From contig NZ_AP031572.1 in assembly GCF_040436315.1 (NCBI RefSeq), positions 3,286,001-3,350,000 of the forward strand: a stretch of 64,000 nt of DNA. Reading direction: 5' to 3'. The notes beneath the pieces are model-generated. The model made no database searches. It was not told the DNA's origin and worked only from the letters and a program-made list of their open reading frames with translations. This DNA comes from Synechocystis sp. LKSZ1. GTDB taxonomy: Bacteria > Cyanobacteriota > Cyanobacteriia > Cyanobacteriales > Microcystaceae. Shown here in pieces: positions 8,070 to 20,512 of this stretch; positions within the stretch are counted from its first letter, which is position 1, and each line of letters starts with the position of its first letter. A program made the position numbers and the translations under genes.

Positions 8070-8095
8070 TGACCTGAGTGAGGAGCTATAGTCTG

Positions 8096-8758
8096 ATGGA
8101 TAAATCAATTCGCCCTGCTGACCTCGGGGCCTTGCTTCGAGACGACAAGGGTTCTCAGTTTTCCTGTGGCCTAGACCGCCTATCCAACTACGACTTAATT
8201 CTGCGCTGTCAAGCCCAAGCTTATCCAGATAATTCCGCCTTTGATGAATTATTACGACGTTATCAATCCCACGTGGATAAGATTTTGTATCATTTAGCAC
8301 CAGATTGGCAAGACCGGGCTGACCTGGCCCAGGAGGTTTGGATTCGAGTATATCGAAACATCAAACGTCTCCAGGAGCCGGTAAAGTTTAAGGGCTGGTT
8401 GAGCCGTATTGCCACCAATTTGTTCTACGACGAATTGCGTAAACGCAAGCGAGTCAGTCATCCTATTTCCTTAGATGCACCCCGGCGCGTAGAGGATGGT
8501 GAAGTAGATTGGGATATTGTCTCTGACTACCCCAGCCCAGATGACACTTTGACGACGGCAGAGTTCTACGAAAGTCTGCAAGCAGCGATTGCAGATCTGC
8601 CCACAGCCTTTCGGACAACCATTATTTTGCGAGAAATTGATGGCCTACCCTATGAGGAAATTGCAGAAATGACGGGAGTTTCCCTCGGAACTGTTAAATC
8701 ACGCATTGCCCGAGCCCGAGCTAAACTCCAATCTGTTTTGCAATCCTACCTGAGTTAG
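8096..8758 (+). CDS. sigG: ECF (group 3) RNA polymerase sigma factor, SigG-like
   Basis: A 220-residue sigma factor. I chose the ATG at 8096, which has GAGGAG 10 bases upstream, over a GTG at 8078. Region 2 spans roughly residues 40-110 (FDELLRRYQ, DLAQEVWIRVYRN, FKGWLSRIATNLFYDELRKRK) and region 4 roughly 160-215 (LPTAFRTTIILREIDGLPYEEIAEMTG, VKSRIARARAKL; both read with gaps). There is no region 3 or 1, as in ECF factors. Together with the adjacent anti-sigma gene it matches cyanobacterial SigG, an envelope- or stress-responsive factor. The symbol is assigned by similarity and context. Confidence 0.85.
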   Translation: MDKSIRPADLGALLRDDKGSQFSCGLDRLSNYDLILRCQAQAYPDNSAFDELLRRYQSHVDKILYHLAPDWQDRADLAQEVWIRVYRNIKRLQEPVKFKGWLSRIATNLFYDELRKRKRVSHPISLDAPRRVEDGEVDWDIVSDYPSPDDTLTTAEFYESLQAAIADLPTAFRTTIILREIDGLPYEEIAEMTGVSLGTVKSRIARARAKLQSVLQSYLS

Positions 8759-8863
8759 GTACCGGCTGACCGATTTCCTCTGTGAGGAGTCCCCTGATCT
8801 GATATTGAGTGCCATTCACAGCCGAAATTGTTATGGTTACGGCTCAGTCTTTCATAGAGGTCA

Positions 8864-9343
8864 ATGATGACACAACCGTTTCCCGATTTACCCGACTCCT
8901 CCAACGAGGTTTCTTCTGTTCATTTCCATCCCGCTGACCGGTTTCAATTACTCAGTGCTTATCTTGATAGAGAAGTGACGGCCCAGGAACATCGTCAGGT
9001 ACAGATGTGGATTGATACAGATCCCCAGTTTAAACAGGCCTATCTCAATCTATTACGCCTGCAACAGGCCATGCCGCAACTCCCAGGGCCTCCTCCGTCT
9101 ATTTCAGCGGCGGAACTATCGCAACGGGTCTTCACCCAGATTGCCCAGGAAAATCGTTATCAACAGTGCTGGCGTTGGGGAAGCATTGCCGTAGCAGTGG
9201 GTTTGGGAGTGGTAACCTCTCTCTGCTGGGGGCCAGTTAGAAGCTTCCTGCCAGGCCCTCAACAGGCCCAGAGAGAGACACCAGAGTCCCTCATGATTGC
9301 CCTGAATCAACCTTTGTTTGATGTTCCAACGGAAACTCATTAG
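8864..9343 (+). CDS. membrane-anchored anti-sigma factor
   Basis: A 159-residue protein 105 bp after the ECF sigma gene. The N-terminal part (RFQLLSAYLDREVTAQEHRQ, about residues 27-46) has the LSAYLDxE start of anti-sigma domains. A single transmembrane helix near residues 105-125 (WGSIAVAVGLGVVTSLCW) is followed by a short C-terminal tail of about 35 residues. The HxxxCxxC zinc motif of ZAS-type anti-sigma factors is absent. Position and topology imply that it holds the sigma factor at the membrane; the signal is unknown. Its last 53 bp overlap the convergent gene. Confidence 0.8.
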   Translation: MMTQPFPDLPDSSNEVSSVHFHPADRFQLLSAYLDREVTAQEHRQVQMWIDTDPQFKQAYLNLLRLQQAMPQLPGPPPSISAAELSQRVFTQIAQENRYQQCWRWGSIAVAVGLGVVTSLCWGPVRSFLPGPQQAQRETPESLMIALNQPLFDVPTETH

Positions 9344-9752: not shown

Positions 9753-10574
9753 TTAGTAACTATAGGGGTCGGCCGGTGTGGGAATCGGTTTAACGGCATC
9801 GGCGACTAAAACTAATTGGCGCTTTTTTTCTTGAGTAGTTTCCCCCGTTTGATGATGGAGTGGCAGGGTTTCCGTGGCCATCGTCCCCTCAATCTCTAGC
9901 CAACTATCTTGGGGATACTGCTGACGGTCTCCCGGTAATTTAACCGGCAATCCCACCGGATAAGCATCCACTGCGCAACAGGTGAGGATAAAACGACTAA
10001 TGAGCAAGTAATTATTCGGTAAATCGGGAGAATAAACCACAAACCCCTGGACTTTGGCCTTTTGACCTTGATAAGCATCCGGTTCAGGATAGCTATTCAG
10101 CGTGCGAATCCAATCCACTAAGCTCCGCTCTTCTGGCTTAACTTGACTGACAAAGCTGGCCGCTTCTAGTTGAGTTGCTGGCAAGGTATTACTGATACCC
10201 CGTTGTAGGGCCATTTGACTGGTAAAAACGGTGGGAGGAATGGCCAACCCCAAAAGTGCCGTCAGCAGAAGCAGACCACTTCCAACGCCGAGGGGAAGGA
10301 GAGTCAGGTGGGTAACGCTGTCATTGGCTTCAGTACCCGGGGAACGACGTAACCCGCGCTTGAGACTGAGAGCCAGGCGACTCCCCCCCAGCAAGACCAG
10401 AATGAGACCCGTGATCGTAACCAAGCCAAAGTAGTTGGGGTGGATGAGGAGTTGTAATTCTCCACGGAAGGAGTATGTCAGTAGCAGAATACCCCAGGCC
10501 AGAATACCCAGGCCGTCCAAGCCAGAAAACCAGAGGGCACGGGGAATACGGTGAAAAAAGGAGGAAGCGGTCAT
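9753..10574 (-). CDS. TIGR03943-family protein, partner of the upstream permease
   Basis: A 273-residue protein with two or three N-terminal hydrophobic segments (about residues 15-70 and 90-115) followed by an extracytoplasmic beta-rich domain. That domain contains GFVVYSPDLPNNYLLISRF and CCAVDAYPVGLPVKLPG, both read in parts. This CC-containing C-terminal domain is typical of TIGR03943 proteins (Bacillus YcgQ type), which occur next to a DUF318/ArsP-like permease, as here 18 bp away. The transported substance is not established; a metal or metalloid is often suggested. Confidence 0.82.
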   Translation of the reverse strand: MTASSFFHRIPRALWFSGLDGLGILAWGILLLTYSFRGELQLLIHPNYFGLVTITGLILVLLGGSRLALSLKRGLRRSPGTEANDSVTHLTLLPLGVGSGLLLLTALLGLAIPPTVFTSQMALQRGISNTLPATQLEAASFVSQVKPEERSLVDWIRTLNSYPEPDAYQGQKAKVQGFVVYSPDLPNNYLLISRFILTCCAVDAYPVGLPVKLPGDRQQYPQDSWLEIEGTMATETLPLHHQTGETTQEKKRQLVLVADAVKPIPTPADPYSY

Positions 10575-10592
10575 TGCACACCAGGAATGCTT

Positions 10593-11594
10593 CTAGAACA
10601 AATAACTATAGGCCAGACTCAGCAAAAAAGTGAGTTGGGCGGCCAGCACTAAAAGATAGACTAAAATACGGCCCTGAAAGATAGACAGCATTAGACTAAT
10701 ACTTTTAATATCAATCATCGGCCCAAAAACCAGAAAGGCCAGCAGGGAACTGCTCGTAAACGTGGTTGCAAAGGAAAGCGCAAAAAACGAATCCACTGTT
10801 GAACAGACGGAGACAATCGCGGCCAACATCATCATGGCCAGAATCGAGGTCAGCGTACCCTGGCCGAGTAGTAAAACGTACTCCCGAGGGACAAAGCCTT
10901 GGATACCAGCGGCAATCAAACTACCAATAATTAACATACCGCCGAGTTCGCGGAGTTCCTGCACCACATTGTCACAAAATAACTGCCAGCGTTGGGGGGC
11001 CTGGGGAGGCAGAAGCAGAGATTCGTCCAAACGAAGGGGTTGGCCCGGTTGGCCTAGTAGAAAAGTACCGGACTGGAGCAAGGGCGAGGCGGCTGCAGAA
11101 GAAGCCAAAGGAGCCGACAGGGCTTGGCGAGGAACAGCAACCCGTTTAAGCAGGAGAGGATTTAGAAGCGGTTGGGGGTCTTTTTGCAGACTGAACAGGC
11201 AACTGATCACTAAGGTAATCAGTAACGAGCACACCACTCGGGCCACCACCAGACTGGGTTGGTCTCGGAAGGCAACCCAAGTTGACCAGATGACGATGGG
11301 ATTGAGGGTCGGGGCGGATAATAAAAACGCAACGGCGACAGAAGTCGGCAGGCCCTGGATCAGAAAACGTCGGGCCACCGGTACATTGCCACATTCACAG
11401 ACCGGAAAGAGGAAACCCATTAAGCTCCCTGCCAAGGCCCCCAGGAAAGGATGACGCGGCAGGGCCTGAATCAGTTTTTTATCATCACTGAAGACGAGCA
11501 ACACACTGGAGAGAATGACCCCAAGAGTCAGAAAGGGCAAGGCCTCAACGAATAAGCTCAGGAAGATGGTAAAAGCTTGGTGCAGTTGTGTCAT
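10593..11594 (-). CDS. permease, DUF318/ArsP_2 family
   Basis: A 333-residue integral membrane protein with about eight hydrophobic helices and a central cytoplasmic loop near residues 150-205. Family marks are the ALPFLTLGV start, FLFPVCECGNVPVARR near residue 60 with two cysteines in a membrane helix, SAPTLNPIV, and a second half with SVCSTVDSFFALSF and FGPMIDIKS. It is co-transcribed with the TIGR03943 protein 18 bp downstream. The paired cysteines suit a soft-metal or thiol-reactive substrate, but none is proven. Confidence 0.87.
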   Translation of the reverse strand: MTQLHQAFTIFLSLFVEALPFLTLGVILSSVLLVFSDDKKLIQALPRHPFLGALAGSLMGFLFPVCECGNVPVARRFLIQGLPTSVAVAFLLSAPTLNPIVIWSTWVAFRDQPSLVVARVVCSLLITLVISCLFSLQKDPQPLLNPLLLKRVAVPRQALSAPLASSAAASPLLQSGTFLLGQPGQPLRLDESLLLPPQAPQRWQLFCDNVVQELRELGGMLIIGSLIAAGIQGFVPREYVLLLGQGTLTSILAMMMLAAIVSVCSTVDSFFALSFATTFTSSSLLAFLVFGPMIDIKSISLMLSIFQGRILVYLLVLAAQLTFLLSLAYSYLF

Positions 11595-13171: not shown

Positions 13172-16100
13172 GTGACACCTCCCAGCCCCGAGATTTCCCA
13201 AAACGCCCCAATGATCTCCCCCCCTCGGCACCAGGCCCTGTTGACGGTGGTCAGTAAGATTCGTGAATCCCTTTCCCTCGAAAAGATTTTCCAAACCACG
13301 GCCCTAGAAGTGCGTCAACTATTAGAAGCTGACCGGGTAGGCATCTATCGCTTTATCCCCGATTCCCAGGGCCGTACCGGGGAGTTTGTGGCGGAGGATG
13401 TGCGAATTCCCTTTGCGCCCCTGGGGGGTCGTCAAATTACAGACCATTGCTTCGCCAATGAATATGGTGACGCCTACCGTGCCGGCAAGCGCTGGGTGGT
13501 GACGGATCTAGAAGCCATGGAGTTACCCGTTTGCCATCAGCAACTACTGGCTAGCCTGGGTTTTCGGGCCAATGTTGTTGTGGCCCTAGTGGCTGGGGGA
13601 GAGCTCTGGGGCCTGCTGACCCTCCATCAATGCGCCCAACCCCGACAATGGCAGGCGGAGGAATTGGACTTTATCGATCAGGTGGCCCTGCATCTGGGGG
13701 TTGCTATCCAACAAGCAGAACTCTTGGCCCAACAGCAACAGCAGGCCCAGGCCTTGGCCCAAATGCTGGAACGGAGTCAGGTGACAGAAAAAATTGTGGA
13801 TAAGATCCGGCGTTCTCTAGAACTTAATCCTATTTTTCAGACGGTTACCCAGGATGTGCTGTCAGTACTCCAGGCTGACCGAGTTTTGATTGTTCAGTTT
13901 ACACCAGAGACATCGGGGGTCAAGGGGCGCCTGGTGGCAGAGGCCATGGCCGTTGGGGTTGAGCCCCTAGCCCTGGCTAAAATCTTGCCTAAAACCTGGC
14001 CCTATGTTTTTCCCAAAGGCAGTCGGGGCAATACTCACTATGCTTGCGAAGATAGTCAACGGGACGAGATTGATGACTATCAACGCTATCTCTTTCAGGA
14101 ACTTGGCATCCGGGCCTTCTTGGCCGTGACGCTGTTTACTAATGACCAAGCCTGGGGCCTCCTCTGCATCCAGCAATGTCACCAGCCCCGGCCATGGCAG
14201 GCGGGAGACCTGGAATTTGTCACGAAAATTGCCTCCCATCTCGGCATTGCTCTCCAGCAGGTGGAGTTATTGCGTCAGGCCCGTAATCAGGCGGCTTCCC
14301 TAGAGGTGGTTCTTGTCCAGGCCCAGCAACAACGGGCGGAACAAATTAAGGCTCTCCAGCGGGAGCGAGCCGTTTCCGAGGTGATTGATAAAATTCGTCG
14401 TACCCTAGACCTCGATACGATTTTTCAAACCACAGTGACGGAGGTTGGTCAACTCCTCCAGACCGATCAAGTGCTAATTCTCCATTTGACGGATGAAGAT
14501 AATCCCTGTCCCCAGGGCCAGTTCATTTCCGAGGCCCTGCATCCCAACGATTGTCACTGCCATTCAGCCCTGGGAACCTCCCCCCATCTCAGTTCCCATT
14601 GGTTCCAGCATTTTTCCCAGGGCCTGATGTTGGCCATTGATGATACTCAGGAACCCTTATCTTTTCCTCATCTGCCGGAGTTTCTGGCGGGCCTAGCCGT
14701 CAGAGCCGTCCTAGTTGTACCCCTGTGGAGGGGGAACGACCTCTGGGGCTTGCTTTGTATTAACGACTGCCATGCCCCCCGACGCTGGCAAAGTTCCGAG
14801 ATTGAATTTGTCCTCAAGATTGCCTTGAATTTAGGCGTGGCCCTCCAGCAAGCTGAACTCTTAGCCGAAACCCAAAAACGCTATCTTGAGCTTCAGCAGG
14901 CCTTGGCCAAGGTACAAGTCCAGAAAGAACACCTAGCCCGAATTGCGGAAGAAGAACGAACCCTGGCTCGGGTGGTGGATCGCATCCGCCAAACCCTTGA
15001 TCTCACTACTATTTTCCAAACCACCACGGAGGAAGTCCGCCACCTGCTAAGCTGTGACCGAGTTTTAGTGTATCGTTTTGAGGCCGATTGGAGTGGTCAC
15101 TTCCTCTACGAATCCGTGGCCAGTTTATGGCGCCCCCTCATTACGGCAGTAGGAGCGATGCCGACTTGGCAAGATACCTATCTCCAGGAGCATCAGGGAG
15201 GACGCTACCGCCATCAAGACATTTTTGTGATTGATGACATTGAGCAGGCGAGTTTGTCCGATTGCCACCTCGCTATCCTGCGGGATTTTCAAGTGCGAGC
15301 GTTTATTATCGTCCCCGTCTTTGTTCGGGAAAAACTTTGGGGCCTGCTAGGCGTGTACCAGAACGAAGCCCCGCGCCATTGGCAGGAACGAGAAACAAGT
15401 TTACTCCGGCAGATCGCGAATCAACTGGGGGTGGCAGTCTACCAGGCCCAACTATTGCACCAAGTGCGAGAACAATCCCAGGATTTGGAGAATACCCTGA
15501 TTGATTTAAACGCCATTGTGGATAACTTGGTCGATGGCCTCTTGGTTACAGATGTTGCGGGACGGGTGACGCGCTTTAACCCGGCCCTACAGGCCATGTT
15601 TAACTTAATTGGAACCGATCTCAAGGGTCTACAACTCGAGGCCTGTTTCCCGCTGGCATTGGCGGCCTTAGCTGAACCCCATAACCTTGATAGTCCTCCC
15701 GTGCGCACCGCAGAAGTGGCCCTGGGCCAGGGCCGGATTGGCCAGGCCATTGCCTCCCAACTCCTAAAACCATCGTCCAACGGCAAAGAAGAATGTTTAG
15801 GGTCGGTAATCATGATCCGGGATGTCACCCGTGAGCGGGAAGTAGACCGCATGAAAACGGATTTTTTGGCGACAGTGTCCCACGAACTCCGCACCCCCCT
15901 GACCTCGGTACTGGGTTTTGCCTCAGTTATCCAAACTAAGCTCCAGACCGTTATCTTTCCGGCCCTCGATCCCCATCACCCCAAGCTCCAGAAAACCGTC
16001 CAGAAAATTGATCAAAATTTACAGATTATCGTGGCCGAAGCGGAGCGATTAACGGATCTGATTAATGATGTCCTGGATATCGCCAAGATGGAATCAGGGA

Positions 16101-16594
16101 ATTTGGAATGGTGCCTAGGGCCGCGTCCTCTTTTGCCTATCCTCGAGCGGGCCATGACCACCGTCGAGCCGCTCTTTAGTCAAAAATCCCTCCGACTCCA
16201 GGCAGACTTTTCCCCTGACCTCCCCCTGGTCCTAGTGGATGAAAATCGCATTTTGCAGGTCTTGCTCAATTTATTATCTAATGCCATAAAATTTACGGAA
16301 CAGGGTATCGTCCGTTGTTGTGCCGAACAGCAGGGAGATGTCCTCCAGGTTACTGTTGCCGACAGTGGCCGGGGCATTCCCAAGACAGAACAAGCCAAAA
16401 TTTTTGATCCCTTTTACCAAGGAGGGAATGTCCTCACCAATAAACCCCAGGGAACAGGGCTCGGCCTCCCCATTTGTCGGCAAATTATAGAACACCACGG
16501 CGGGCAGATCTGGGTGGAAAGTGAGCCGGGCCAAGGCAGTCAATTTCACTTCACCCTGCCCCTCTATTCGCCAGAATCACCTCCCGGCGTCTAG
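13172..16594 (+). CDS. four-GAF sensor histidine kinase with cyanobacteriochrome signatures
   Basis: A 1140-residue kinase from the GTG at 13172; an ATG at 13211 would remove 13 residues. Four GAF domains lie at about 20-185, 205-375, 400-570 and 595-765, then a PAS domain (about 785-885), HisKA with H904 (SHELRTPL) and HATPase_c (LLNLLSNAIKFT, DSGRGIP, GTGLGLPI). GAF1 has DHCF with C93 and VCH with C121, 28 residues apart, the DXCF cyanobacteriochrome pattern. GAF4 has DCHLAIL with C698. GAF2 and GAF3 lack the CH cysteine. There is no transmembrane helix or receiver domain. A response-regulator gene follows 69 bp downstream. Confidence 0.9.
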   Translation: MTPPSPEISQNAPMISPPRHQALLTVVSKIRESLSLEKIFQTTALEVRQLLEADRVGIYRFIPDSQGRTGEFVAEDVRIPFAPLGGRQITDHCFANEYGDAYRAGKRWVVTDLEAMELPVCHQQLLASLGFRANVVVALVAGGELWGLLTLHQCAQPRQWQAEELDFIDQVALHLGVAIQQAELLAQQQQQAQALAQMLERSQVTEKIVDKIRRSLELNPIFQTVTQDVLSVLQADRVLIVQFTPETSGVKGRLVAEAMAVGVEPLALAKILPKTWPYVFPKGSRGNTHYACEDSQRDEIDDYQRYLFQELGIRAFLAVTLFTNDQAWGLLCIQQCHQPRPWQAGDLEFVTKIASHLGIALQQVELLRQARNQAASLEVVLVQAQQQRAEQIKALQRERAVSEVIDKIRRTLDLDTIFQTTVTEVGQLLQTDQVLILHLTDEDNPCPQGQFISEALHPNDCHCHSALGTSPHLSSHWFQHFSQGLMLAIDDTQEPLSFPHLPEFLAGLAVRAVLVVPLWRGNDLWGLLCINDCHAPRRWQSSEIEFVLKIALNLGVALQQAELLAETQKRYLELQQALAKVQVQKEHLARIAEEERTLARVVDRIRQTLDLTTIFQTTTEEVRHLLSCDRVLVYRFEADWSGHFLYESVASLWRPLITAVGAMPTWQDTYLQEHQGGRYRHQDIFVIDDIEQASLSDCHLAILRDFQVRAFIIVPVFVREKLWGLLGVYQNEAPRHWQERETSLLRQIANQLGVAVYQAQLLHQVREQSQDLENTLIDLNAIVDNLVDGLLVTDVAGRVTRFNPALQAMFNLIGTDLKGLQLEACFPLALAALAEPHNLDSPPVRTAEVALGQGRIGQAIASQLLKPSSNGKEECLGSVIMIRDVTREREVDRMKTDFLATVSHELRTPLTSVLGFASVIQTKLQTVIFPALDPHHPKLQKTVQKIDQNLQIIVAEAERLTDLINDVLDIAKMESGNLEWCLGPRPLLPILERAMTTVEPLFSQKSLRLQADFSPDLPLVLVDENRILQVLLNLLSNAIKFTEQGIVRCCAEQQGDVLQVTVADSGRGIPKTEQAKIFDPFYQGGNVLTNKPQGTGLGLPICRQIIEHHGGQIWVESEPGQGSQFHFTLPLYSPESPPGV

Positions 16595-16663: not shown

Positions 16664-17080
16664 ATGACCCAATCTGAATGCTTGGCTAGACTGCAAAGAA
16701 GCATTTTAATTGCTGATGATGAGCCAAATATTCTGATTTTAATGGAGCAGGTATTGGAGGAATTGGAGGAAGAGGGGGTAAAACTGTTTCTGGTCAACAA
16801 TGGTACAGATGCCTTGTCCACCCTAGTGGCTCAGCGTCCTGCCCTTGTATTTCTAGATGTTATGATGCCCGAGCTGAGCGGCTTTGAGGTATGCCGCCTC
16901 GTCAAGGACAATCCTGACCTCCAGTCTATTTATATTGTATTATTGACCGCCAAAGGCCAGGCCTTTGATCACGAACAAGGGATGGCGGTTGGCGCAGATT
17001 GCTATATGACCAAACCCTTTCGTCCCAAGGAGATTTTAACCAAGGCACGACGGATTTTACAACGACAGGCCGGGAACTAG
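16664..17080 (+). CDS. single-domain response regulator
   Basis: A 138-residue CheY-like receiver with no output domain. The acidic pocket DDE is at 18-20, the phosphoacceptor is D65 (VFLDVMMPE), and the switch residues are T95 (LLTAKG) and K117 (MTKPFRP). It lies between the GAF kinase and a diguanylate cyclase on the same strand, with 69 and 60 bp gaps. It is therefore the probable phosphoacceptor of the kinase, and perhaps a link to the cyclase. That pathway is inference from order. Confidence 0.92.
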   Translation: MTQSECLARLQRSILIADDEPNILILMEQVLEELEEEGVKLFLVNNGTDALSTLVAQRPALVFLDVMMPELSGFEVCRLVKDNPDLQSIYIVLLTAKGQAFDHEQGMAVGADCYMTKPFRPKEILTKARRILQRQAGN

Positions 17081-17140
17081 AGCAGTCCAAGAAAAATTGT
17101 CCCACCATTGACGGCAACATTTCAGCTTAGAGCGCGTACT

Positions 17141-18529
17141 ATGGTTAGCCTGAAATTACGGAAAATTTTGCAAAAACCCGAGGTTCTTAACCTGCTGGAA
17201 ACGTTTGAGCAGGTTTTTCAGCTACCCATTGCGGTCTACGATCTCCAAGGCGAATGCCTATGGGGAACCGAATCTACTGACTTTGACTATCGTTTCAGTA
17301 TTCACACCCCTGAGGCTTGTCTCGGCCAGGTGCGAGGAGATCAACGTTTGGCGGTTTTAGCCCAGTGGTTAAGTTGTCTCTGCCGAGAAGAATGGGAAAA
17401 AAAATGCCTGGCAGTAGAAACCTTGCAGAAATACGAAGAGGTTAATTTTCTCTCGGATTTCTCCGTCAAAATCTCTAACTGTACTAGTCTGGCAGAAATG
17501 ACTGCCATGATTTATCCGGAGATTCAGCAACTTTTCCAAGCGACTCAGGCCTTTATTGTCCTTTCTCACTCGTCAGATTCTAGCCTGGAGGCCCTGTCCC
17601 CCCCGGCGCCGGATCCTTTGGCTGCTTATGCCGAGCTTGACGCCATTTTTCAGCGTATTCTGGCCCGCCAGGAAACAGAAATTATTAACGACCTCTCCCG
17701 GAGTCAAGAGAATGCTAGAGGGCCTGGCTCCCTTCGTTCTTGGATGCTAGCGCCGCTGAAAACTCAAAATCAAACCATCGGCATTCTTGGCGTTGCCCAC
17801 ACCGAGCCCATGCAATATTCCTCGGAGGATTTGAATTTATTTATTACCCTTTCCTCCCAGGTGGCGGCGGCCATTCAAACCGCCCAGTACTATGAAAAAT
17901 TAAAGGAATATTCCCAAACCCTAGAACAACGGGTAATGGAAAGAACCCAAGAACTGGAGGCCGCTAAGCAACAATTAGAAAAAGCGAACCAGGAATTAAA
18001 ACGTTTGGCCATCTACGATGATTTAACCGCTATTCCTAATCGTCGTTACTTCAATCAGTACATTCAGCAGGAATGGCGGCGCTGTCTCCGCGACCAGCAA
18101 AGCCTATCCCTGATTCTTTGTGATGTGGATTATTTCAAAAACTACAACGACTACTACGGTCACCAAGCCGGGGATGAATGCCTGCGGCGCGTGGCAGAAG
18201 TCATTACCCAAAGTCTAAAGCGCTCTCCAGATCTCGTGGCCCGCTACGGTGGCGAAGAATTTGCCATTATTTTGCCCAATACGGATTCCTACGGTGCCTA
18301 TTTCCTCGCCGAACGCATTCAGGCTAATTTATTTGCCCAGGCCATTCCCCATTGTCATTCCTACAGTAGTTCCTACCTGACCCTCAGCCTGGGGATTGCC
18401 ACAGCGATTCCCTCTGGTAACTCTTCCCTCGAGACCCTCATTAAGCTAGCGGACCAGGCCCTCTACGATGCTAAAGAGCAAGGTCGTAATCAAATCCGGG
18501 CTAGGGTACTGTCCTTTAAGTTAGTTTAG
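17141..18529 (+). CDS. GAF-GGDEF diguanylate cyclase
   Basis: A 462-residue soluble protein from the ATG at 17141; a TTG at 17108 is less likely. Residues about 10-110 form an N-terminal sensor-like domain (LNLLETFEQVFQLPIAVYD, cysteine-containing). A GAF-like domain covers about 115-260, a coiled coil about 262-295, and a GGDEF domain about 297-455. The active-site GGEEF is at 370-374, and RSPD at 361-364 is a product-inhibition site correctly spaced before RYGGEEF. It should make c-di-GMP from two GTP under feedback control. The signal is unknown; the two genes before it suggest light or redox input. Confidence 0.92.
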   Translation: MVSLKLRKILQKPEVLNLLETFEQVFQLPIAVYDLQGECLWGTESTDFDYRFSIHTPEACLGQVRGDQRLAVLAQWLSCLCREEWEKKCLAVETLQKYEEVNFLSDFSVKISNCTSLAEMTAMIYPEIQQLFQATQAFIVLSHSSDSSLEALSPPAPDPLAAYAELDAIFQRILARQETEIINDLSRSQENARGPGSLRSWMLAPLKTQNQTIGILGVAHTEPMQYSSEDLNLFITLSSQVAAAIQTAQYYEKLKEYSQTLEQRVMERTQELEAAKQQLEKANQELKRLAIYDDLTAIPNRRYFNQYIQQEWRRCLRDQQSLSLILCDVDYFKNYNDYYGHQAGDECLRRVAEVITQSLKRSPDLVARYGGEEFAIILPNTDSYGAYFLAERIQANLFAQAIPHCHSYSSSYLTLSLGIATAIPSGNSSLETLIKLADQALYDAKEQGRNQIRARVLSFKLV

Positions 18530-19247: not shown

Positions 19248-19395
19248 AAAAACATCAAGGTCGAAAAATCGCTGAGTTTAAGTCAAGTTGGTTTAAATAT
19301 TAACGCAGAGAGGGAACCCTAAAACAGCTAGAATAGTCACTCCTGGGCTTGGCTATAGAAGCCAAGAGTACAGTTTTTGTTTGTATTCGTGAACC

Positions 19396-20512
19396 ATGCT
19401 AGAGATTAGTGACCTAAAACGAGACCTGGAAACCCTCCACACGCGCCTGGGGCAAACCCAGGACTATCTTTGACCTTCCTGCTCTCCAGGCCAAAATTAA
19501 CGACCTAGAACAAACTGCTGCCCAACCCAACTTTTGGGACAGTACAGACCAAGCACAAGCAACCCTACAAAAACTTAACGACCTGAAATCCCAAGTCGAG
19601 CAGTACCAGGCCTGGCGACGTCAATGGGACGATAGTCAAGCGATTGTGGAATTGCTAGACCTAGAGCCAGATGACAGCCTATTCCAAGAGGCCCGAGACA
19701 CCTTGAAATACCTCCGCCAGGCCCTGGATCGTTGGGAATTGCAACAACTGCTGAGGGGCCCCTACGATGCTAAGGGTGCTGTTTTAAGCATCAATGCTGG
19801 GGCAGGCGGTACCGATGCCCAGGATTGGGCAGAGATGTTGTTACGGATGTACAGTCGTTGGGGAGAGCAACAGGGCTATAAAGTCCACTTGGCAGAAATT
19901 TCCGAAGGGGATGAAGCGGGTATTAAATCGGCCACCCTAGAAATTGAAGGACGCTATGCCTACGGCTATCTGAAGGGAGAAAAGGGAACCCACCGTCTCG
20001 TTCGTATTTCTCCGTTCAACGCCAACGGTAAACGGCAAACCAGTTTTGCGGGCGTGGAGGTGATGCCGGCCCTGGGGGATGAGGCCATTAACCTAGATAT
20101 TCCCGACAAGGATCTGGAAATTACCACTTCCCGGGCCGGGGGTAAAGGCGGCCAAAACGTCAACAAAGTAGAAACTGCTGTTCGCATTGTGCACCTCCCC
20201 ACGGGCCTAGCCGTTCGCTGTACTCAAGAGCGTTCCCAACTCCAAAATAAGGAAAAGGCCCTATTGATCCTCAAGGCCAAACTGCTAGTAGTTCTCCAAG
20301 AGCAACGGGCCCAGGCCATTGCAGAAATTCGGGGGGACATGGTGGAGGCGGCCTGGGGCAACCAAATTCGTAACTACGTTTTTCATCCCTACCAACTGGT
20401 CAAGGATCTCCGCACCAACGTGGAGACCACCGATGTGACGGGGGTGATGAATGGAGACCTCAATGCAATGATCGAAGCCTATCTGCGCCATCTCCCTCGA
20501 GAAGAAACCTAA
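19396..20512 (+). CDS. prfB: peptide chain release factor 2, programmed +1 frameshift
   Basis: The gene is read as 19396-19470 joined to 19472-20512, giving 371 residues. Codons 1-25 end at CTT, followed by an in-frame TGA at 19471-19473; skipping one base continues at GAC in the +1 frame. The slip site TATCTTTGAC with an AGGA element just before it is the autoregulatory prfB signal: low RF2 favours shifting at UGA. SPF at 205-207 is the stop-codon recognition tripeptide and GGQ at 251-253 the peptidyl-tRNA hydrolysis motif, both at the positions known for E. coli RF2. It terminates at UAA and UGA. Confidence 0.96.
19462..19474 (+). promoter_or_regulatory. programmed +1 ribosomal frameshift site of prfB
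   Basis: The CAG-GAC-TAT-CTT-TGA-C context contains the conserved CUU-UGA-C slip sequence. An AGGA element sits directly upstream, in the place of the Shine-Dalgarno-like stimulator of the E. coli site. The TGA at 19471 is the sensor stop codon. Confidence 0.95.

Follow-up and report, generated by a model that had tools for sequence, protein, structure and literature searches.

Slr1393 of Synechocystis sp. PCC 6803 is a three-GAF histidine kinase in which two GAF domains lack the bilin-binding cysteine. Its GAF3 is a standard object of cyanobacteriochrome photophysics and is described as switching between 649 and 536 nm (PMC9152790). Such XRG domains are defined by a WXDXXL motif (PMC11284453), and DXCF domains, reported from various lineages (PMC11284453), usually have a blue-absorbing dark state and a green photoproduct, teal, green and orange photoproducts also being known (PMC5578081, PMC11284453). 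Routes from cyanobacterial kinases to cyclases have been described for CdgK, which acts on the response regulator and diguanylate cyclase CdgS in Anabaena PCC 7120 (PMC9927289), and for AphC, which purportedly acts on the adenylate cyclase CyaC under far-red light (PMC4284465); some cyanobacteriochromes are themselves enzymes of cyclic di-GMP metabolism (PMC8846402). Here we describe a locus in a window of 64,000 nucleotides from Synechocystis sp. LKSZ1 (NZ_AP031572.1, positions 3,286,001 to 3,350,000; the source genome is a single 3.67-Mb contig), in which a four-GAF histidine kinase (13172-16594) is followed after 69 bases by a single-domain response regulator (REC; 16664-17080, 138 aa) and then by a diguanylate cyclase gene (17108-18529), all on the forward strand. 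Judged through its close relatives, the kinase is a four-GAF orthologue of Slr1393. With a probability of roughly 0.7, we read it as a phycocyanobilin-based, two-colour kinase of the Slr1393 type that drives second-messenger synthesis through the downstream REC.

The kinase frame is uninterrupted, starts with GTG and encodes 1,140 residues, an ATG at 13211 (M14) being an alternative start. Its domain order is GAF1-GAF2-GAF3-GAF4-PAS-like-HisKA-HATPase_c. Pfam found the four GAF stretches, HisKA (aa 894-976) and HATPase_c (aa 1023-1132) above cut-off, the last two spanning aa 894-1132 (15851-16567), and a PAS_8 segment after GAF4 (15506-15625, aa 779-818, E 5.3e-4) slightly below the curated cut-off. 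The H-box SHELRTPLT lies at residue 903 and the N, G1, F and G2 boxes are all present, as in orthodox histidine kinases. The motifs that a first-pass annotation had read from this DNA are exact, namely DHCF at 91-94 with C93, C121 28 residues further on, DTYL at 668-671 and DCHLAIL with C698.

Within the genus, three genomes (G002-G004) encode a three-GAF form of the kinase without GAF1. Its GAFs 1, 2 and 3 have window GAF2, GAF3 and GAF4 as their best matches in that order (50-52% identity for GAF3 and 67-68% for GAF4), and identity to these relatives is about 51% over aa 204-1140. The match of the first of these GAFs to window GAF2 is weak, and in the reverse direction window GAF2 scores better against their second GAF; the first of two GAF trees joins window GAF2 with their first GAFs (support 100/99). 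The third GAF of the G002-G004 kinases is identical to Slr1393 GAF3 (PDB 5dfx) at 136-146 of 159 residues (144 of 159 in G003). A fourth genome of the genus, G001, has the entire four-GAF layout, its domains matching those of the window in order at 52, 42, 54 and 67% identity. The window kinase thus departs from the three-GAF layout by the extra GAF1 that it has in common with G001, and the in-order matches indicate that the genus holds a four-GAF form in two genomes and a three-GAF form in three.

GAF1 (13214-13768, aa 15-199) is a DXCF-type domain, as first proposed. In aligned columns it carries both the canonical C121-H122 (C121 codon 13532-13534) and DHCF (C93 codon 13448-13450), and among 53 positions conserved at >=85% in 73 other DXCF GAFs it retains 47. 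It groups with DXCF-motif domains of related kinases in both trees (84/83 in the first, 96/96 in the second), and the placement outside the cyanobacteriochromes that the first-pass annotation had named as refuting its reading is seen for neither GAF1 nor GAF4, in trees that both lacked a sound outgroup (that of the first had a branch of 5.7 and joined own-genome DXCF domains). Its best PDB match by sequence is 6oap (1.4e-37), with TePixJ at 1.6e-23 (3vv4). An AlphaFold2 model (predicted local distance difference test score 88.2) has the cyanobacteriochrome GAF fold, matching 6ob8 best in Foldseek (E 2e-21) and TePixJ (4fof) at E 4e-16 and TMq 0.75. TePixJ, the sole characterised DXCF domain included, lies outside the GAF1 group in both trees, which weighs against the assignment. 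Forcing it into the group lowers the log-likelihood by 9.5 units, a placement that the approximately unbiased (AU) test does not reject (p 0.17), and joining TePixJ is not in itself defining because DXCF domains come from various lineages. By analogy with characterised DXCF domains, GAF1 would most likely alternate between a blue-absorbing state, in which C93 forms a second thioether, and a state that absorbs green (possibly teal or orange) light.

GAF4 (14927-15502, aa 586-777) is a bilin domain of a different type, red/green XRG, in line with the different colour response that the first-pass annotation had suggested. Its best PDB match is Slr1393 GAF3 (8.5e-68), with which it joins at 100/99 in the first tree, and it falls in one group with AnPixJg2 and NpR6012g4 in both trees (93/86 and 90/84). 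It retains 40 of 42 XRG-conserved positions and has the WXDXXL motif as W666-Q-D-T-Y-L671, together with C698-H699 (C698 codon 15263-15265) and no DXCF cysteine; DTYL at the DXCF position is therefore the ordinary XRG state and no oddity. On account of the closeness to Slr1393 GAF3 with its 649/536 nm switch, the motif, the cysteine and the conserved positions, GAF4 is likely to cycle between red- and green-absorbing states as that domain does.

The first-pass annotation had called such a pairing of two spectrally different chromophore domains uncommon, and this we reject. A DXCF GAF is combined with an XRG GAF carrying the canonical cysteine in 32 of 48 multi-GAF frames, drawn from loci fetched by similarity to the window with repeats, near-copies and the window itself counted. 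The same genome encodes another protein (L002; G000 C1:3665630-3666793) that pairs an XRG GAF with a DXCF GAF, and PtxD/NpF2164 is described with seven GAFs and six colours (PMC5812497). That annotation was sound on motifs and domain types, and it left out the PAS-like segment, the REC and cyclase genes, the kinase's relation to Slr1393 as an orthologue, and the likelihood that GAF2 and GAF3 descend from DXCF domains.

The kinase and the REC gene travel together well beyond this genome. Of 38 picked loci, the window included, 36 have a REC homologue 3' of the kinase; three of the 38 (L029, L030 and L041) have kinases without cyanobacteriochrome GAFs. REC is found no more than 9 kb downstream in 55 of 81 relatives of the kinase core; among the 27 fetched loci whose kinase has a GAF4-like domain, 25 show it. 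Across 38 related genomes, both genes are present in 14, the kinase only in 1 (G021), REC only in 3 and neither in 20, at thresholds of our choosing (E<=1e-60 for the GAF part of the kinase, E<=1e-33 for REC; Fisher p 9e-7, a value that ignores shared ancestry), and in 10 of the 14 no more than about 2 kb separates the two genes. G001-G005 each have one close REC relative (53-62% identity, next best 36-41%). G005, L010 and L021-L024 show the same order of three genes, again with GGDEF in the third.

The third gene encodes an unnamed N-terminal domain, a GAF domain and a GGDEF domain. Its frame opens at TTG 17108, and relatives start at the position of ATG 17141, the probable start. GGEEF at 381 and an RxxD I-site (RSPD) at 372 predict an active diguanylate cyclase. 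The N-terminal domain (17141-17485) has no Pfam match (PocR-like, E 0.13) and no PDB match by sequence, and a fold search with this domain plus the GAF returned mostly GAF structures. Among the NCBIfam matches listed (kinase, 25 of 84; REC, 25 of 90; cyclase, 25 of 27), only a generic GGDEF domain model was above cut-off. Promoter-like and terminator-like sites did not exceed shuffled sequence (8 versus 6.2 and 11 versus 10.0).

A protein with this N-terminal part and GAF comes third in 21 of the 38 picked loci; L093-L099 stop too early to reveal a third gene. What differs is its catalytic end, which is GGDEF in 7 (the window, L010, L021-L024 and L146), a class III cyclase in 10 (L009 and L012-L020; motif in all ten, Pfam match in L009, L012, L013 and L015) and no in-frame catalytic domain in 4 (L026, L029, L030 and L041). 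In a tree of the shared N-terminal part (22 rows; the program warned of long branches), the GGDEF rows form one side of a branch supported at 96/93, so a single exchange suffices. The N-domain plus GAF is found at E<=1e-40 in 36 of 145 genomes from the class. The 30 loci taken from these, 10 of which were run against Pfam, end in a cyclase (15), no output (6), a Ser/Thr kinase (5), SpoIIE/PP2C (2), a histidine kinase (1) or GGDEF (1, the window). A REC homologue adjoins 19 of the 30, comprising 12 of the 15 cyclases, all 6 that lack an output (in one case on the opposite strand) and the window, and lies beside none of the 8 phosphatase and kinase versions. Joined to a GAF, the N-domain is thus combined with any of five kinds of catalytic output or stands without one, and where the output is a cyclase or absent a single-domain REC is often its neighbour.

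Several findings weigh against a common pathway for the three genes. No REC lies downstream of the kinase in L011; L094, the second miss among the picked loci, stops with the kinase frame, and in that genome a REC is present 1.9 kb past the matched part. No REC occurs within 9 kb in 26 of the 81 kinase-core relatives, 24 of which have no GAF4-like domain. Kinase and REC are apart in G002, G003, G004 and G042, the kinase, REC and cyclase orthologues are all dispersed in G002-G004, and the cyclase orthologue is not beside REC in G001. REC and the cyclase could accordingly be mere neighbours, with the kinase acting on another regulator and the cyclase answering to its own GAF. REC lacks an output domain and might have its target elsewhere, G001-G004 show no linkage between kinase and cyclase orthologue, and homologues of the N-terminal part have no adjacent REC in 11 of the 30 loci. 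Against this stand the placement of REC beside the kinase in all but two picked loci, with the N-part and GAF protein next in more than half of them, across genera, and the frequent pairing of that protein with REC in the wider class. We regard this alternative as unlikely, while granting that it retains appreciable weight.

As an observation by eye, a GAF-GGDEF-EAL-looking frame in G001 is directed towards the kinase-REC pair (L125 2764-4740), the cyclase orthologue being elsewhere in that genome. In G003 the cyclase orthologue is preceded by REC, CheW-like and methyl-accepting chemotaxis-like genes (L148 8-5567, also by eye), an arrangement that may bear on phototaxis. In L041 (4344-5459, Coleofasciculus) the third gene appears by eye to leave the cyclase frame past the GAF, possibly through a frameshift in the draft assembly. 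For the REC and cyclase orthologues of G003, the gene neighbourhoods suggest the PCC 6803 tags slr1982 and slr1047, but Slr1047 appears as a Tat component in PMC3726282, and we therefore claim no locus tag.

Between the two intact domains lie GAF2 (13754-14320, aa 195-383) and GAF3 (14339-14911, aa 390-580). When the four GAFs are aligned by profile, the residue at the canonical cysteine (C121 column) is Y in GAF2 and H in GAF3; both therefore lack this cysteine, as the first-pass annotation had observed. The DXCF-cysteine column holds T and H, respectively. Other CH dipeptides in these domains (at 336, 461-464 and 532-536) lie outside the C121 column. GAF2 retains 31 and GAF3 37 of the 53 DXCF-conserved positions. 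Both carry L-[CFTLM]-[ITVLAG]-x-x-C, a signature that 64 of 73 DXCF GAFs share and that occurs in 0 of 50 XRG GAFs, and the second tree places GAF3 with its four orthologues, plus GAF2, on the kinase-DXCF side of the 96/96 branch. Signature and tree favour, rather than prove, that GAF2 and GAF3 are decayed DXCF domains. Both are probably non-chromophoric. Counting against the decayed-DXCF origin, the signature is missing from the GAF2 and GAF3 counterparts of G001-G004 and from the intact GAF1 of G001, and a tree constrained to keep GAF3 on the XRG side, although 21.6 log-likelihood units worse, passes the AU test at 5% (p 0.065). It is also conceivable that GAF2 and GAF3 bind another ligand (a nucleotide, heme or a non-covalent bilin) and add an input other than light, for they are kept in all five same-genus orthologues despite the loss of both cysteines. 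The loss from both domains of D80, C82, F83, Y91, C110, H111, N123 and H141 of the DXCF consensus, and the very long branches of the GAF2 lineages in the first tree, as relaxed constraint would give, make such binding rather improbable.

Whether GAF1 is itself active bears directly on the two-colour reading. Only GAF4 might be photoactive, GAF1 binding no bilin or having no useful photocycle, and the protein would then resemble Slr1393 plus an extra structural domain. In keeping with this, GAF1 departs from the DXCF consensus at six positions (D24S, S72P, F118L, L124V, P127A and C139T in profile numbering), one of them, P>A, at a near-invariant proline, two of the four GAFs have already lost their cysteines, and the sister lineage has no GAF1. 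GAF1 nevertheless keeps C93, C121, D80, F83, Y91, H111, N123 and H141 (profile numbering for residues other than cysteine), and the same DHCF and CH motifs persist in G001 at 52.2% domain identity. It misses 6 of the 53 conserved positions, versus 22 in GAF2 and 16 in GAF3, and we consider its inactivity quite improbable. On these results, the idea that ordinary GAF domains match the motifs by chance can be dismissed, since nothing was found in its favour, 1 of 20,000 residue shuffles of the kinase reached the pattern of D.CF, 24-28 residues and CH, and trees, PDB matches and the predicted GAF1 fold place the domains among cyanobacteriochromes.

A gain of GAF1 private to the window genome is likewise rejected, as G001 has GAF1 and locus L099 of genome G014 has a four-GAF layout of DXCF-DXCF-DXCF-XRG. 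GAF1 also groups with the first GAFs of other cyanobacterial kinases in the first tree (98/99). This layout and grouping make loss of GAF1 in the Slr1393 line likelier than gain, and the three-GAF Slr1393 form looks like a derived one that lost GAF1 and whose partner genes became dispersed. The second tree leaves the first-GAF grouping unresolved, which weakens the case for this polarity.

Taken with the two-colour kinase reading, these features make the following scheme the most likely. The genome encodes one Fe_bilin_red reductase of the PcyA family, so phycocyanobilin would be the expected bilin. From what is known of the family, light would be sensed by GAF1 and GAF4, and GAF2 and GAF3, with their bilin cysteines lost, would probably act as signal-transmitting spacers. 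Shifts in helical register, relayed by the linkers of the GAFs and by the PAS-like segment, may then alter autophosphorylation at H904, as the intact kinase motifs would allow. The phosphoryl group would pass from H904 to D65 of the stand-alone REC, which, going by gene order, may act on the third-gene diguanylate cyclase and so on cyclic di-GMP. More broadly, and as a tentative possibility, the kinase may head a modular light-to-second-messenger operon that occurs in several cyanobacterial families. A constant pair of multi-cyanobacteriochrome kinase and stand-alone REC would there be combined with a third protein whose catalytic end has been exchanged. The N-domain of this third protein would dock phosphorylated REC, and Slr1393 would be a reduced descendant with the dispersed REC and cyclase orthologues as its unrecognised partners.

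Elsewhere in the window, prfB (about 19390-20512) has an apparent classic programmed frameshift, with MLEISDLK...QTQDYL followed by CTT TGA at 19468 and FDLPALQAK in the other frame. A gene for an extracytoplasmic function (ECF) sigma factor is followed by one with a weak anti-sigma factor match (8078-9343; 20.5 bits against a cut-off of 100), and on the reverse strand an ArsP_1-type permease adjoins a TIGR03943 putative permease subunit (9753-11594).

The kinase is a well-formed case of a known type, and the operon with its exchanged cyclase is the more interesting part. Among the open-licence papers listed, judged by titles, abstract openings and passages, we found no report of this operon or of a partner or target of full-length Slr1393. 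The value of the kinase is that of a fuller relative of Slr1393 that exposes a probable output pathway. It supplies a candidate route, through REC and then a cyclase, for the full-length protein whose GAF3 is so widely studied, and it suggests that the two cysteine-less GAFs of Slr1393 are relics of DXCF sensors. As a natural two-colour version, it would make it possible to measure how a blue/green and a red/green domain interact when two dead GAFs lie between them, and the occurrence of the same kinase and REC with cyclic di-GMP or class III cyclase outputs lets rewiring between second messengers be asked directly.

Compared with known systems, the window kinase, judged through G002-G004, is collinear with Slr1393 in its GAFs, GAF4 being the counterpart of the red/green GAF3, and like the Slr1393-type kinases of G002-G004 it has two GAFs without the bilin cysteine. 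It differs from Slr1393 in the extra N-terminal DXCF GAF1 with both cysteines, and from the Slr1393 type in that the REC and cyclase genes are linked to it in an apparent operon, whereas they are dispersed in G002-G004. GAF1 resembles TePixJ in its fold and in the D-x-C-F second cysteine 28 residues ahead of the canonical Cys-His. GAF1 differs in having DHCF in place of DPCF and changes at some conserved positions. TePixJ falls outside the GAF1 group in trees and is annotated as a methyl-accepting chemotaxis protein, while GAF1 is one input of a multi-GAF kinase. PtxD of Nostoc punctiforme likewise places several spectrally different cyanobacteriochrome GAFs on one polypeptide; it is described as a phototaxis photoreceptor in which at least six of the seven GAFs bind bilin (PMC5812497), whereas the window protein has two intact GAFs and a histidine kinase output. 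As described, CdgK-CdgS and AphC-CyaC are, like the pathway proposed here, cyanobacterial kinase-to-cyclase routes, but in both the cyclase itself is phosphorylated, whereas the window locus encodes the receiver as a protein of its own, apart from a cyclase that carries an unnamed domain and a GAF.

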